From Paracoccaceae bacterium (GTDB taxonomy: Bacteria; Pseudomonadota; Alphaproteobacteria; Rhodobacterales; Rhodobacteraceae), in contig WOUW01000002.1 of the NCBI GenBank assembly GCA_009773055.1, positions 22,518 through 86,517 of the forward strand: a stretch of 64,000 nt of DNA, in the 5' to 3' direction. The notes under the pieces were generated by a model, which was not told the origin of the DNA, searched no databases, and saw only the letters and a program-made list of their open reading frames with translations. A program made the position numbers and the translations under genes. Of this stretch, positions 43,923 through 48,126 are shown piece by piece. The first letter of the stretch is position 1; every line of letters starts with the position of its first letter.

Positions 43923-45791
43923 ATGCCCGATCAAATCAGCAGCAAACCCCGCACCGGACACGAGGTGATCCAGGATTGCCTCCGCACCCTCGACGGCTCG
44001 CCCGGGGTCTACCGGATGCTGAACGCCGCCTCCGAAGTGCTATATGTCGGCAAGGCCCGCAATCTGAAGGCCCGCGTCTCGAACTACGCCCGCCCCTCGG
44101 GCCATTCCGGCCGCATCGCCCGGATGATCCACGAAACCGCCTCGATGATGTTCCTGACCACGCGGACGGAGCTTGAGGCGCTGCTTCTTGAACAGAACCT
44201 CATCAAGCAGCTGAAGCCGCGCTACAACGTGCTGCTGCGCGACGACAAGTCCTTCCCGAACATCCTGATTTCCAGCGAACACCCCTATCCGCAGATCAAG
44301 AAGCACCGTGGCAAGAAGTCCGAGAGGGGCGCCTACTTCGGCCCCTTCGCCTCCGCCGGGGCCGTCAACCGCACCCTCAACCAGCTGCAGAAGGTCTTCC
44401 TCCTGCGGAACTGCTCGGACTCGATGTTTGAGTCCCGCACCCGTCCCTGCCTGCAATACCAGATCAAACGCTGCAGCGCGCCCTGTGTCGGCAAGATCAG
44501 CCCCGAGGGCTACGCCACCCTCGTCGCCGACGCCACGCGCTTTCTGGAGGGCAAGACCACCTCCGTCCAGGCCGATCTGGCGAAAGCAATGACCGAAGCC
44601 TCCACCCAGATGGAATTCGAACGCGCCGCCGCCCTGCGCGACCGGATCAAGGCGCTTACCCAGGTCCAGCAGACGCAAGGCATCAACCCGCAGGGCGTGA
44701 CCGAAGCCGATGTGGTCGCCCTCCACCTTGAACACGGCCAGGCCTGCGTCCAGGTCTTCTTCATCCGCGCCAACCAAAGCTGGGGCAACCGCGACTTCTA
44801 CCCCAAGACCGGGGCAGGCGCGGAAGAACCCGAGATCATGGAGGCCTTCCTCACCCAGTTCTACGACGACAAGGACCCGCCCCGCCTGATCCTCCTGTCG
44901 CATCCCGTCGACAACCCCGACCTGGTGACCGAGGCCCTGACCGCCCGCGCGGGTCGAAAGGTGGAACTCGCCGTCCCCCAGCGCGGCGAAAAGGCCGAAC
45001 TCGTCGAAAACGCCACCCGCAACGCCCGCGAAAGCCTCGCCCGCCGGATGGCCGAGTCGACCACGCAGAACAAGCTCCTCACCGGCCTCGCCGAAGCCTT
45101 CGACCTCGACGCCCCTCCGCAGCGGATCGAGGTCTACGACAACTCGCACATCCAAGGAGCACACGCCGTGGGCGGTATGATCGTCGCCGGGGCCGAGGGC
45201 TTCCTGAAATCCCAGTACCGCAAGTTCAACATCAAGTCCGAGGCCGGTGCCAACTCCGACGACTTCGGCATGATGAAGGAAGTCCTGACCCGCCGCTTCG
45301 AGCGTCTGTTGAAGGAAGACCCCGACCGCAAGACCGACATGTGGCCCGACCTCCTGCTGATCGACGGCGGGGCAGGGCAGGTGTCGGCAGTAGCCGAGAT
45401 CATGTCCGAGCTTGGCGTCGAAGACATCCCGATGGTCGGCGTCGCCAAAGGCATCGACCGGGACGCCGGGAAAGAGGAATTCCACCGCCCCGGTGAACGC
45501 CCCTTCGCCCTGCAAAGGAACGACCCCGTCCTCTACTTCATCCAGCGCCTCCGGGACGAGGCCCACCGCTGGGCCATCGGCGCCCACCGCGCCAAGCGGG
45601 CGAAGGCCGTCAGCCTGACCCCCCTCGACGACATCCCCGGCATCGGAGCCACAAGAAAACGCGCCCTCCTGCAACACTTCGGCAGCGCCAAGGCCGTCGC
45701 GCGAGCGGGCCTGTCAGACCTGCAGGCCGTAGACGGGATTTCCGAGGCAATGGCCAAGACCATCGCGGACTACTTTTCGGCGAAGGGGTAG
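43923..45791 (+). CDS. uvrC: Excinuclease ABC subunit C
   Basis: Makes both incisions in nucleotide excision repair together with UvrB. Length 622 residues. Domains in order: GIY-YIG nuclease ([26 protein letters not shown]), Cys-rich region ([15 protein letters not shown]), UVR/UvrB-binding motif ([18 protein letters not shown]), RNase H-like nuclease ([24 protein letters not shown]) and C-terminal helix-hairpin-helix pair ([19 protein letters not shown]). In related genomes it is usually followed by pgsA-moaD-moaE; here it is followed by an AT-rich island. Confidence 0.97.
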
Positions 45792-45926
45792 GGTGGAGCT
45801 CCACTTCAAGAGCCGGAGCAGTGATCAATGCGCCTATGTGCTGGAGGGCTTTACGGTCGTCCGGCATGTCATCGTCAAGGTTGGGTGGGCAGCGGGTCGG
45901 ATTGAGTCCCTTCCCCTGCACCCCAT

Positions 45927-45981
45927 GGTGAGCACAGGTGAGCACGGTGAGGACGAAGAGTACGATGAGGACGATGAGGAC
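45927..45981 (+). repeat. 9-bp tandem repeat, six units
   Basis: Phased nonamers GGTGAGCAC (A) GGTGAGCAC, GGTGAGGAC, GAAGAGTAC, GATGAGGAC, GATGAGGAC, with consensus GRTGAGSAC and a single A after the first unit. This is a small minisatellite 135 bases after uvrC and would vary easily in copy number between strains. Confidence 0.8.
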
Positions 45982-46176
45982 TGCCGGAGACTCGTATCGT
46001 CTTGATTGCGTTGACAAAGGCGGGCGAGCGCAACGCATCCCGCGCAGTTTATCGCGTTATATAACTCAGTATCTCCGGTTGAGTATGTCATATACGCGAA
46101 TATACAGCGCCAGAAAAGTTACCTAAATCATTGAAAATAAAAGGGAACGCCCACATATTAGCAGTACAGGGCGAAC

Positions 46177-46250
46177 GGGGTCCAAACTCTTCGCTGGAAC
46201 GATGCTCCTGGCTTCCAAACCCAGGAGCATTTCGCTGGGGGTCCAAACTC
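46177..46250 (+). repeat. Direct repeats GGGGTCCAAACTC and TTCGCTGG flanking a perfect hairpin
   Basis: GGGGTCCAAACTC occurs at 46177-46189 and 46238-46250, and TTCGCTGG at 46190-46197 and 46231-46238 (a third, CTCGCTGG, is at 46294). Between them lies ATGCTCCTGG-CTTCCAAAC-CCAGGAGCAT (46202-46230), a perfect 10-bp stem with a 9-base loop. All four motifs of the form TCCAAA in this zone fall in loops or repeat cores. It may encode a structured RNA. Confidence 0.65.
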
Positions 46251-46276
46251 AAGCGATGACTGACGGTCAGTGACTA

Positions 46277-46327
46277 CCGGTCTCCAAAACCGGCTCGCTG
46301 GCGCGATATTCGCAGTATCGCGCCAGC
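46277..46327 (+). repeat. tRNA-Trp-like anticodon stem-loop followed by a perfect 12-bp hairpin
   Basis: CCGGTCTCCAAAACCGG (46277-46293) has a 5-bp stem and 7-base loop and is identical to the anticodon arm of bacterial tRNA-Trp with anticodon CCA. No acceptor, D or T arm of a tRNA can be built around it. Four bases on, GCTGGCGCGATA-TTCGCAG-TATCGCGCCAGC (46297-46327) is a perfect 12-bp stem ending 20 bases before the next start codon, where it could act as an operator or attenuator. A sixth, weaker stem ACTGA-CGG-TCAGT precedes both. Confidence 0.65.
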
Positions 46328-46347
46328 ATCTATCTCAGGAGCATACG

Positions 46348-46884
46348 ATGGCAAGAAAGTCAAAGATCAAGTCGCAAATCGAAGCACTGCGGGCCGAGTT
46401 GTGGCCCAACATTGAGAAAATGCATGTCTGGAATCGTCAGACGTCAGATGGTTATTCGACCATGCCAAGGACTATATCTCAGTTGGGGGCGATCGGCGAC
46501 GCTCTATCCGGCAAGGGCAAGCCGGTCATGCAGACATACCTAGAACTATGGTGTCGTGTATATGACGACGGCTTTGTGAACTTGAGCCGCCAACAAGAGA
46601 TAGCCTTTGCGTCCGGCTTCTCTGGACAACGTGCGGTCGCTACGTGGCGTGAACGCATGAAGCGGCTTCACGAGCTAGGGTTCATCGACATAAAGGAAGG
46701 TCCATCTGGGCCTTACAGCTACGCTCTAATTATCAACCCATATTGGGTCGTTGCTTCGCACAAGAAAAATGGAACCAAGAACTTCCCGCAAGATAGGTAC
46801 GTAGCCCTGTTCGAACGAGCGTTGGAGATCGGCGCAACCGACCTTACTGAGTACAACAAGGAACTCGCAGAAGCTGTCCAGTAG
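46348..46884 (+). CDS. Unknown winged-helix-like protein in AT-rich island
   Basis: A 178-residue protein from the ATG at 46348 (MARKSKIKSQIEALRAELWP), with CAGGA upstream; the ORF track start lies in the hairpin zone. Lower GC and different codon use (for example CTA, ATA, TCC mixtures) than its neighbours. The segment LSRQQEIAFASGFSGQRAVATWRERMKRLHELGFIDI... followed by SYALIINPYWVV looks like a winged helix-turn-helix with a beta wing, as in plasmid replication or partition proteins. I do not recognise a family. The neighbouring repeats could be iteron-like or operator sites for it, which is inference. Confidence 0.65.
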   Translation: MARKSKIKSQIEALRAELWPNIEKMHVWNRQTSDGYSTMPRTISQLGAIGDALSGKGKPVMQTYLELWCRVYDDGFVNLSRQQEIAFASGFSGQRAVATWRERMKRLHELGFIDIKEGPSGPYSYALIINPYWVVASHKKNGTKNFPQDRYVALFERALEIGATDLTEYNKELAEAVQ

Positions 46885-46938
46885 ATGGCGAGCAAGTCCC
46901 GGCTAGGCAAGTTCCCTGTCGACGTTCCAAACACCTCT

Positions 46939-47037
46939 CCTCCCCCAACGTGGGGAGGGGCCGGGGGTGGGGGGCACCCGGCCAGCCCCGATTCGTGACG
47001 GATGGTTAACGCCCCCGCGTGCATACGCACGTATGCA
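46939..47037. repeat. Two palindromes downstream of the island gene
   Basis: CCTCCCC-CAACGT-GGGGAGG (46939-46958) belongs to the GC-rich CCTCCCC/GGGGAGG palindromes scattered in many proteobacteria and is followed by GGGGGTGGGGGGCACCC. TGCATACG-CA-CGTATGCA (47020-47037) is a separate perfect 8-bp dyad. Next to it TGTAGACG occurs twice (about 47043 and 47054). The gap 46885-47124 holds no gene; the first palindrome may end the island transcript. Confidence 0.6.
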
Positions 47038-47124
47038 TGGAGTGTAGACGCGATGTAGACGGAAAGAAGACGCCGTATTTACAGCCAACCCCTTGATCTA
47101 ACAGACCGAACGCCGGACTAGCGG

Positions 47125-48126
47125 CTACTTCACCACGAACCCATGCGCAAACGGATCGCGGTCGTCGATGAAGATCGTGTTGATCCCCGTCTGCCGCGCC
47201 CACCCGGCGATGGAGGGCACAATCGCCTCCCGCCCCGCCACCTTGGCCGCCGCCTCGACCCGCCCCTTGAAGATCGACCCGATGATGCTCTCATGGTGGA
47301 ACTCGTCCCCCACGGCCAGCTTCCCCTTCGCCGCAAGCTGCGCCATCCGGGCCGAGGTCCCCGTCCCGCAGGGGCTGCGGTCAATCGCTTTTTCCCCATA
47401 AAACACGGCGTTACGGGCATGGGCCCCCGGCACCGTCGGCTTGCCCGTCCACAGGATATGGCTCAGCCCCCGGATCGCCGGATGCTCCGGATGCACGAAC
47501 TCATACTTCGCATTCAGCGCGGCGCGGAGCTTCGGCGACCACCCCACCAGCTCCCCCGCCGTATGGTCCGCCACATCGCGGAACGCCTTCTGCGGCTCGA
47601 CAATCGCATAGAAGTTCCCGCCATAGGCCACGTCCACCACGACCTCGCCCAGCCCTTCCACTTCCGCCGTAAGCCCCTCAGAATAAAGGAATCCCGGCAC
47701 ATTGGTCAGCCGCACTTCCTCGACAAACCGCCCATCCTGTATATACGAAACTTCGACCCGACCCGCCGGAGCGTCCACCGCCAACCGCCCCGGTTCCCGC
47801 GGCGTGATCAGCCCGTTCTCCAACCCCATCGTCACCGTCCCGATCAGCCCATGCCCGCACATTGGCAGGCAACCGGAGGTCTCGATGAACAGCACTCCCA
47901 CATCACAATCCGCCCGCGTCGGCGGATACAGGATCGACCCCGACATCATGTCATGCCCCCGGGGTTCGAACATCAGCCCGGTCCGTATCCAGTCGTAATC
48001 CTTCAGGAAATGCGCCCGACGCTCCAGCATCGTCGCCCCCTCCAGCCGGGGGCCCCCACCCGAAACCAGCCGGACCGGGTTGCCGCAGGTGTGTCCGTCG
48101 AGGCAGGAGAATGTATATACGGCCAT
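47125..48126 (-). CDS. 4-hydroxyproline 2-epimerase (proline racemase family)
   Basis: Interconverts trans-4-hydroxy-L-proline and cis-4-hydroxy-D-proline, the first step of hydroxyproline breakdown. The 333-residue protein has both catalytic Cys: Cys90 in MCGHGLIG and Cys253 in DRSPCGTGTSARMA, so it is an epimerase and not the Thr-type dehydratase. The N-terminal CLDGHTCGNPVRLV is typical of the hydroxyproline subgroup. Start at MAVYTFSCLDGHT. It carries two GTATATAC octamers (47739, 48113). The next two genes supply the following steps. Confidence 0.92.
   Translation of the reverse strand: MAVYTFSCLDGHTCGNPVRLVSGGGPRLEGATMLERRAHFLKDYDWIRTGLMFEPRGHDMMSGSILYPPTRADCDVGVLFIETSGCLPMCGHGLIGTVTMGLENGLITPREPGRLAVDAPAGRVEVSYIQDGRFVEEVRLTNVPGFLYSEGLTAEVEGLGEVVVDVAYGGNFYAIVEPQKAFRDVADHTAGELVGWSPKLRAALNAKYEFVHPEHPAIRGLSHILWTGKPTVPGAHARNAVFYGEKAIDRSPCGTGTSARMAQLAAKGKLAVGDEFHHESIIGSIFKGRVEAAAKVAGREAIVPSIAGWARQTGINTIFIDDRDPFAHGFVVK

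Follow-up and report, generated by a model that had tools for sequence, protein, structure and literature searches.

What is the AT-rich island that separates uvrC from a proline-racemase-like gene in this Paracoccaceae bacterium, and what could its repeats and hairpins do for the 178-aa protein encoded directly behind them? For this part of the window, i.e. the whole stretch of 64,000 nucleotides that was analysed, the original prediction had described direct repeats, perfect stems and a tRNA-Trp-like anticodon arm, and had likened them either to the iteron/operator array of a replication-type protein or to a structured regulatory RNA with its protein partner. The features of the locus are the following, with positions given in the window.

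45791: stop codon of uvrC
45792-46927: lineage-specific insert between uvrC and the proline-racemase-like gene, its right edge lying at about 46927-46956
45930-45981, + strand: six GAGCAC-like iterons (GAGCAC GAGCAC GAGGAC GAGTAC GAGGAC GAGGAC), 9-10 bp apart
46124-46139, + strand: conserved promoter-like motif TAAATCATTGAAAATA
46131-46159, + strand: predicted sigma70-type promoter TTGAAA-17-CATATT
46170-46195, + strand: hairpin 1, loop GTCCAAA at 46180-46186
46202-46230, + strand: hairpin 2, 10-bp perfect stem (46202-46211 with 46221-46230), TTCCAAA within the loop
46232-46256, + strand: hairpin 3, loop GTCCAAA at 46241-46247
46277-46293, + strand: hairpin 4, the "tRNA-Trp-like" arm, 5-bp stem and 7-nt loop CTCCAAA
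46297-46327, + strand: hairpin 5, 12-bp perfect stem (46297-46308 with 46316-46327), loop TTCGCAG
46337-46341, + strand: Shine-Dalgarno sequence AGGAG
46348-46884, + strand: gene of a 178-aa protein of an unnamed family, predicted winged helix-turn-helix (wHTH) at residues about 37-135
47125-48126, opposite strand: racemase-like gene (proline-racemase-like)

Read from left to right, uvrC is followed by the iterons, an AT-rich stretch, the promoter-like motif, the five hairpins, the Shine-Dalgarno sequence, the 178-aa gene and the racemase-like gene. In same-genus genomes UvrC is 92-97% identical, and the alignment to the window ends at 45787-45796 and restarts at 46927-46957. The content of the site between uvrC and the racemase-like gene differs among species of the genus: it holds just 67 bp in L092, an unrelated segment of about 950 bp with a minus-strand gene in five genomes (L087-L090 and L096), and yet another content, a gene pair, in L091. 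Therefore, the cassette is lineage-specific and stands at a content-exchanging site. The 178-aa protein was absent from 30 of 30 other same-genus genomes, and neither a target duplication nor a transposase was seen at the insert. The low GC and atypical codon use that had been noticed are real: the region has a GC content of 0.51-0.56 against 0.62-0.67 in its surroundings, and the GC3 of the 178-aa gene is 0.60 compared to 0.78-0.87 in the neighbouring genes.

The repeats, stems and anticodon-like arm named in the original prediction are all present in the sequence and exceed chance, as 500 dinucleotide-preserving shuffles of 46151-46348 gave a repeat maximum of 11 and no perfect stem of at least 10 bp. 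The 13-base direct repeat GGGGTCCAAACTC, found at 46177 and 46238, is the conserved loop with its flanks in two copies. The repeated TTCGCTGG blocks do exist, but they are the stem arms of hairpins 1 and 3 and form no independent repeat. TCGCTGG blocks start at 46191, 46232 and 46295. The leader of the window contains four loop-motif hairpins and a fifth stem (46170-46327), and its folding z-score is -5.2 in the sense and -2.8 in the antisense direction; the values for other leaders are mixed (L102 -4.2, L024 -3.5, L012 -1.4, L010 -1.1, L013 -1.1, L014 +0.2). At the place of hairpin 5, L001 and L002 have a stem of different sequence. Around the Shine-Dalgarno sequence, CAGGAGCAU (46336-46344) repeats the 3' arm of hairpin 2 (46221-46230). 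Occlusion of the Shine-Dalgarno sequence by the 5' arm of hairpin 2 (46203-46211 against CAGGAGCAU) is possible in the window and was rejected, as it is not conserved in L001 and L002; kissing between the loops and the Shine-Dalgarno sequence was likewise discarded, the Shine-Dalgarno sequences of the homologues keeping no complementarity to the loop as judged by eye.

For the 178-aa protein no family of Pfam, NCBIfam, PHROGs or PADLOC was significant, and the wHTH family to which it belongs is unnamed in these collections; no solved structure matches it by sequence. An AlphaFold2 model built from 14 sequences (mean pLDDT 82.6) predicts a winged helix at about residues 37-135, in keeping with the wHTH-like character first proposed. 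The structural matches are generic wHTH ones (MarR, TFE and Fur-type; best Z 7.6, Foldseek E about 0.01); they fix the fold class and not the function. The fold search is unable to name a closer family, and absence from its match lists is not evidence. Using the protein in tblastn, we retrieved 164 plasmid records, one phage and two genome contigs at 79-83% identity. Profile searches found members in 7 of 394 genomes of the taxonomic family, in 3 of 385 at class level and in 5 of 398 at phylum level, counts that each include the window's own genome, and they also matched phage contigs. Viral scans with A4 and L006 gave no match. The family is scattered over plasmids, phages and chromosomes, in roughly 1-2% of the genomes searched. 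Compared with L001, the 178-aa gene shows a dN of 0.13 with saturated dS. A search of the open-access literature for the family, or for the accessions of its plasmid homologues, found nothing relevant.

The six iterons show a period-9 autocorrelation of 0.69, a value as high being reached in 0 of 200 shuffles. An iteron/operator array had been proposed for the hairpin region itself; a GAGCAC-like array exists, but at 45930-45981 and not in that place. These iterons had not been pointed out in the original prediction. Upstream of most homologues, including hairpin-less ones, GAGCAC-like or GATNAC-like units recur at a spacing of 8-9 bp, and the unit varies by lineage, e.g. GATAAC in L029 and L015. 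Such variation would fit binding sites that co-evolve with the wHTH protein, and judging from the sequences the iterons at 45930-45981 are candidate DNA-binding sites of this protein. Our scan gave no clear GAGCAC array in the L010 group, L021 and L011, the L010 group having an 8-bp period instead. The GAGCAC array pattern searched in viral contigs had one match, inside a collagen-like repeat gene and unrelated. A 70-aa ORF at 45793-46005 is probably not a gene, its acidic tail (GEHGEDEEYDEDDEDC) being the mere translation of the iteron array.

The hairpins recur in front of homologous genes; their stems covary and their loop is nearly invariant. The upstream regions were read by eye for nine classes, and then the 48 distinct regions were counted without selection for pairing. 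The + strand has 39 copies of the loop motif TCCA(A/C)A, and 30 of these, at 17 loci, are flanked by stems in which 5 or more of 6 positions pair; of the 5 copies on the - strand, none is in a stem. As controls, 119 motifs (loops permuted on either strand, and the unpermuted loop on the - strand) gave an average of 0.1 hairpins each. In 37 aligned hairpins, the loop reads N-T-C-C-A-(A 28, C 7, T 2)-(A 36, G 1), with G as the first base in 31 of 37. These hairpins contain 81 two-sided pair changes compared to 33.8 in shuffles (0 of 500 as high), a contrast that is inflated because hairpins had entered the alignment only with 3 or more of 5 pairs; the occurrence count (30 of 39) is therefore the cleaner test. 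When the pairs are slid by one column, the two-sided changes fall to 36 or 27. Stem sequences differ between hairpins and yet stay complementary, while the loop NUCCA(A/C)A hardly changes. Inside the stems there are 158 Watson-Crick, 6 GU, 5 AC and 11 other pairs; considering that GU is not above AC, the covariation does not prove a role as RNA over one as DNA. The number of hairpins (1-4 per leader) and their spacing vary between homologues, so that the "phased" arrangement first described is not supported.

On the protein tree, members with hairpins group together in one alphaproteobacterial clade of modest support (81/72), and at least three changes of the hairpin state are forced by well-supported branches. 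Homologues lacking the repeats had been named as evidence that would speak against the prediction. Such homologues do exist, the hairpins being absent from relatives outside the alphaproteobacterial clade, but inside this clade 18 of 22 members carry them, and they are kept although the proteins drop to about 40% identity. A hairpin-type member is carried, for example, by pMOC2 of Methylobacterium oryzae CBMB20. L005, whose protein is 60% identical to that of the window, has no hairpins. The retention in 18 of 22 members, together with the hairpin-less L005, indicates an element that is old within the clade, was lost at times and is dispensable for the family overall. A hairpin model was searched in 12 whole genomes with the gene, in the source genomes of L001 and L002, and in 120 genomes of the taxonomic family. 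Its matches cluster only at the wHTH gene; elsewhere the matches examined were single and near the threshold, and mostly lay inside or antisense to ORFs. Rfam gave no match to the hairpin leader, and the element has no entry there.

The position of the hairpin block was considered with respect to the promoter. The motif at 46124-46139 scores 21.5, against 7.5 for the 95th percentile of shuffles, the scores being partly circular because the motif was built from nine sites with the window's among them. It is found above shuffles upstream of many homologues, and is weak or absent in L010, L025, L027, L031, L032 and L102. The overlapping sigma70-type site is the only + strand promoter-like site in 45780-47120, although alone it is weak, as shuffles average 0.8 such sites. 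In gammaproteobacterial plasmids the motif lies 62-68 nt before the ATG, with no hairpins and no room for any; in the window, L001 and L002 its position is -224 to -238, and soon after the predicted transcription start the first hairpin begins. The distance from the iterons to the motif is about 140 bp in both cases. Therefore, the hairpin block looks added between the promoter and the ribosome-binding site.

Outside the hairpin clade, a second gene often follows the wHTH gene closely, forming a two-gene operon with it. This second gene is PBECR2 in L018 and L104, Abi_2 in L019, NYN in L005 and PIN_3 in L055; L016 has a borderline Abi_2 match at a 169-bp gap, and elsewhere the product is an unnamed protein of 164 or 189 aa. 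Within the hairpin clade, an abortive-infection-family gene lies 20 bp downstream in L006, but most other members stand alone, including that of the window, where no same-strand gene follows the 178-aa gene. These neighbours suggest, without proving it, that the wHTH gene is a control module for anti-phage or toxin-like effectors. Members of the family occur in phages, as single copies in chromosomes, and on plasmids that have a ColRNAI or RepM replicon of their own; some of those on plasmids are near mobQ and ArdC-like genes. On small enterobacterial plasmids (L004, L007, L018, L020 and L104-L108), the second gene begins 0-4 nt downstream and is PBECR2 or the unnamed 164/189-aa type.

Considering these data, we tentatively favour, at somewhat less than even confidence, a multi-hairpin leader, not described before, that would control the wHTH gene through a bound protein, perhaps the wHTH protein itself. 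The best supported part of the reading is a cis-acting leader whose repeated identical loops are most simply a multivalent site for one protein. The wHTH protein is the first candidate binder because the loop motif follows its gene family and no other was found. The locus would then be a single-gene regulatory cassette, in which the 178-aa gene is probably transcribed from the promoter at 46131-46159 and the six upstream iterons are the likely DNA-binding sites of its product. The transcript would begin with a leader of about 180 nt, with a run of hairpins whose loops NUCCA(A/C)A may offer a single RNA-binding protein several sites to bind; the likeliest such protein is the wHTH protein itself, which would brake translation or mRNA stability. 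The conservation of the hairpins, the covariation of their stems and their association with the wHTH gene are shown by the comparisons, whereas the transcription of the leader, its action as RNA and not as DNA, its binding partner and its effect on regulation are inferred.

Leaders that repeat a single protein-binding motif are known from CsrA/RsmA targets and from TRAP, and like them the present leader exposes several identical motifs, which suggests multivalent binding by one protein. Unlike the GGA of CsrA and the GAG/UAG of TRAP, the motif here is NUCCA(A/C)A and is found with one gene family only. For a winged helix that reads an mRNA hairpin loop, SelB is a precedent, but there is no sequence relation to SelB/SECIS, the loop is different and no selenocysteine context is present here.

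The main rival is a role of the array as an RNA antitoxin or decoy, similar to abiF or type III toxin-antitoxin systems, in which a short leader-derived RNA would restrain a nuclease encoded adjacent or elsewhere. The abiF leader RCd22 has a pair of hairpin motifs, placed after the promoter and before the gene, which work as an RNA antitoxin and neutralise the encoded protein both in cis and in trans (PMC12373285); the order of promoter, repeated hairpin motifs and gene is the same here. Relatives also often precede RNase-type or Abi genes (PBECR2, Abi_2, NYN, PIN_3, abortive infection family protein). As in the abiF RNA (RF03085) with AbiF/Abi_2, there are at least two copies of a hairpin motif between promoter and start codon, a gene of mobile elements and a sporadic distribution. 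Nevertheless, the motif differs, the gene here is a wHTH gene with no Abi_2 match and not an Abi_2 HEPN toxin, and the hairpin-bearing members, the window included, are mostly without an adjacent nuclease or toxin gene, while most members with a nuclease gene have no hairpins, L006 being an exception. The window has no abiF match, RF03085 not being among the matches with E up to 10 in 45780-47120, and the 178-aa protein matches no nuclease family. Type III systems (ToxIN, CptIN, TenpIN) also have a repeated structured RNA just upstream of a gene on plasmids or phages, but here no ToxN-, CptN- or TenpN-type endoribonuclease was matched in Pfam or NCBIfam, and the hairpins share only the loop and the pairing and not a whole tandem repeat unit. 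We thus regard an antitoxin-like role as unlikely. Many relatives further resemble AbiE (AbiEi wHTH antitoxin, type IV) in having a wHTH first gene and a toxin-like second gene; however, there is no AbiEi family match, the window is without an adjacent gene, and the second genes of the relatives are varied RNase or Abi types and not AbiEii, with iterons in place of inverted repeats.

The hairpins could also act as DNA, i.e. as single-strand hairpins or asymmetric palindromes that the wHTH protein, a relaxase or a polymerase would read, for instance when plasmid DNA enters the cell, and the almost purely Watson-Crick stems and the mobQ and ArdC-like neighbours are consistent with it. This is improbable when one considers that the orientation of the loop relative to the gene is constant (30 to 0), that the block lies between the promoter motif and the start codon, that hairpins are kept in chromosomal members without nearby transfer genes, and that stem sequences vary more freely than a double-stranded operator would allow. 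A replication origin with its initiator, the first of the two original comparisons, is very unlikely: an iteron array, an AT-rich stretch and a wHTH protein do jointly resemble iteron plasmids, and staphylococcal Rep N-domains are among the weak fold matches (4pql_B Z 6.4, 5kbj_G Z 5.6), but these are generic wHTH matches, no Rep family such as Rep_3 is matched, and the reading was rejected on family, on context (chromosomal sites, phages, frequent pairing with toxin-like genes) and on the co-resident replicons, small ColRNAI-type plasmids among them. Least probable of all is a mimicry of the tRNA-Trp anticodon arm, which hairpin 4 recalls by its 5-bp stem and loop CUCCAAA. tRNAs keep a pyrimidine at 32 and a purine at 37 of the anticodon loop; here, loop base 1 is mostly G, base 6 is C in 7 and T in 2 of the 37 hairpins, and the stems are free to vary and to lengthen. 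ARAGORN found no tRNA or tmRNA in the region, no cloverleaf was found, and an Rfam tRNA-Sec match of 16.2 bits, against a gathering score of 47, was discarded as chance.

The leader bound by a protein thus remains our preferred reading. The initial observation is confirmed, and it is stronger after the analysis of homologues than could be known from the window; its interpretation is partly supported, the structured regulatory element with a partner protein having held and the replication-type protein not. The putative RNA element and the protein family are both new in being unnamed, although the general kind, a structured leader with a partner protein, is known. The family is ready for testing, with a conserved DNA array, a hairpin array in one clade, and adjacent RNase-type effectors on plasmids and phages. 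Should the leader serve as an RNA operator of the wHTH protein, a single small protein would recognise DNA as well as RNA; should it be an antitoxin-like RNA instead, abiF and the type III systems would be joined by a further RNA-controlled defence module. More doubtful is the wider proposal that the family binds iteron DNA and its own leader RNA as an exchangeable control module for RNase-type anti-phage effectors across mobile elements.

Three further observations concern the surroundings of the element. In L009, L016, L017, L022 and L033-L054, the promoter-like motif comes directly after the iterons, and about 190 nt remain before the ATG; this stretch folds strongly in some of them and may be a different leader RNA. 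Hairpin-less members have palindromes between the iterons and the gene, GTAATATATATTAC in gammaproteobacterial plasmids and GCGCGATATCGCGC in Pseudomonas and Rhizobium ones (L018, L020, L007 and L008, at about 140-190 bp before the ATG; L017 and L022), which are possible further operators. Just to the right of the insert, at 46928-46975, lies a GC-rich element, CTCCCC(C)AACGTGGGGAGG...GGGGGTGGGG, which recurs at two further sites in the genome (G000 C40, C46) and is therefore a dispersed repeat.
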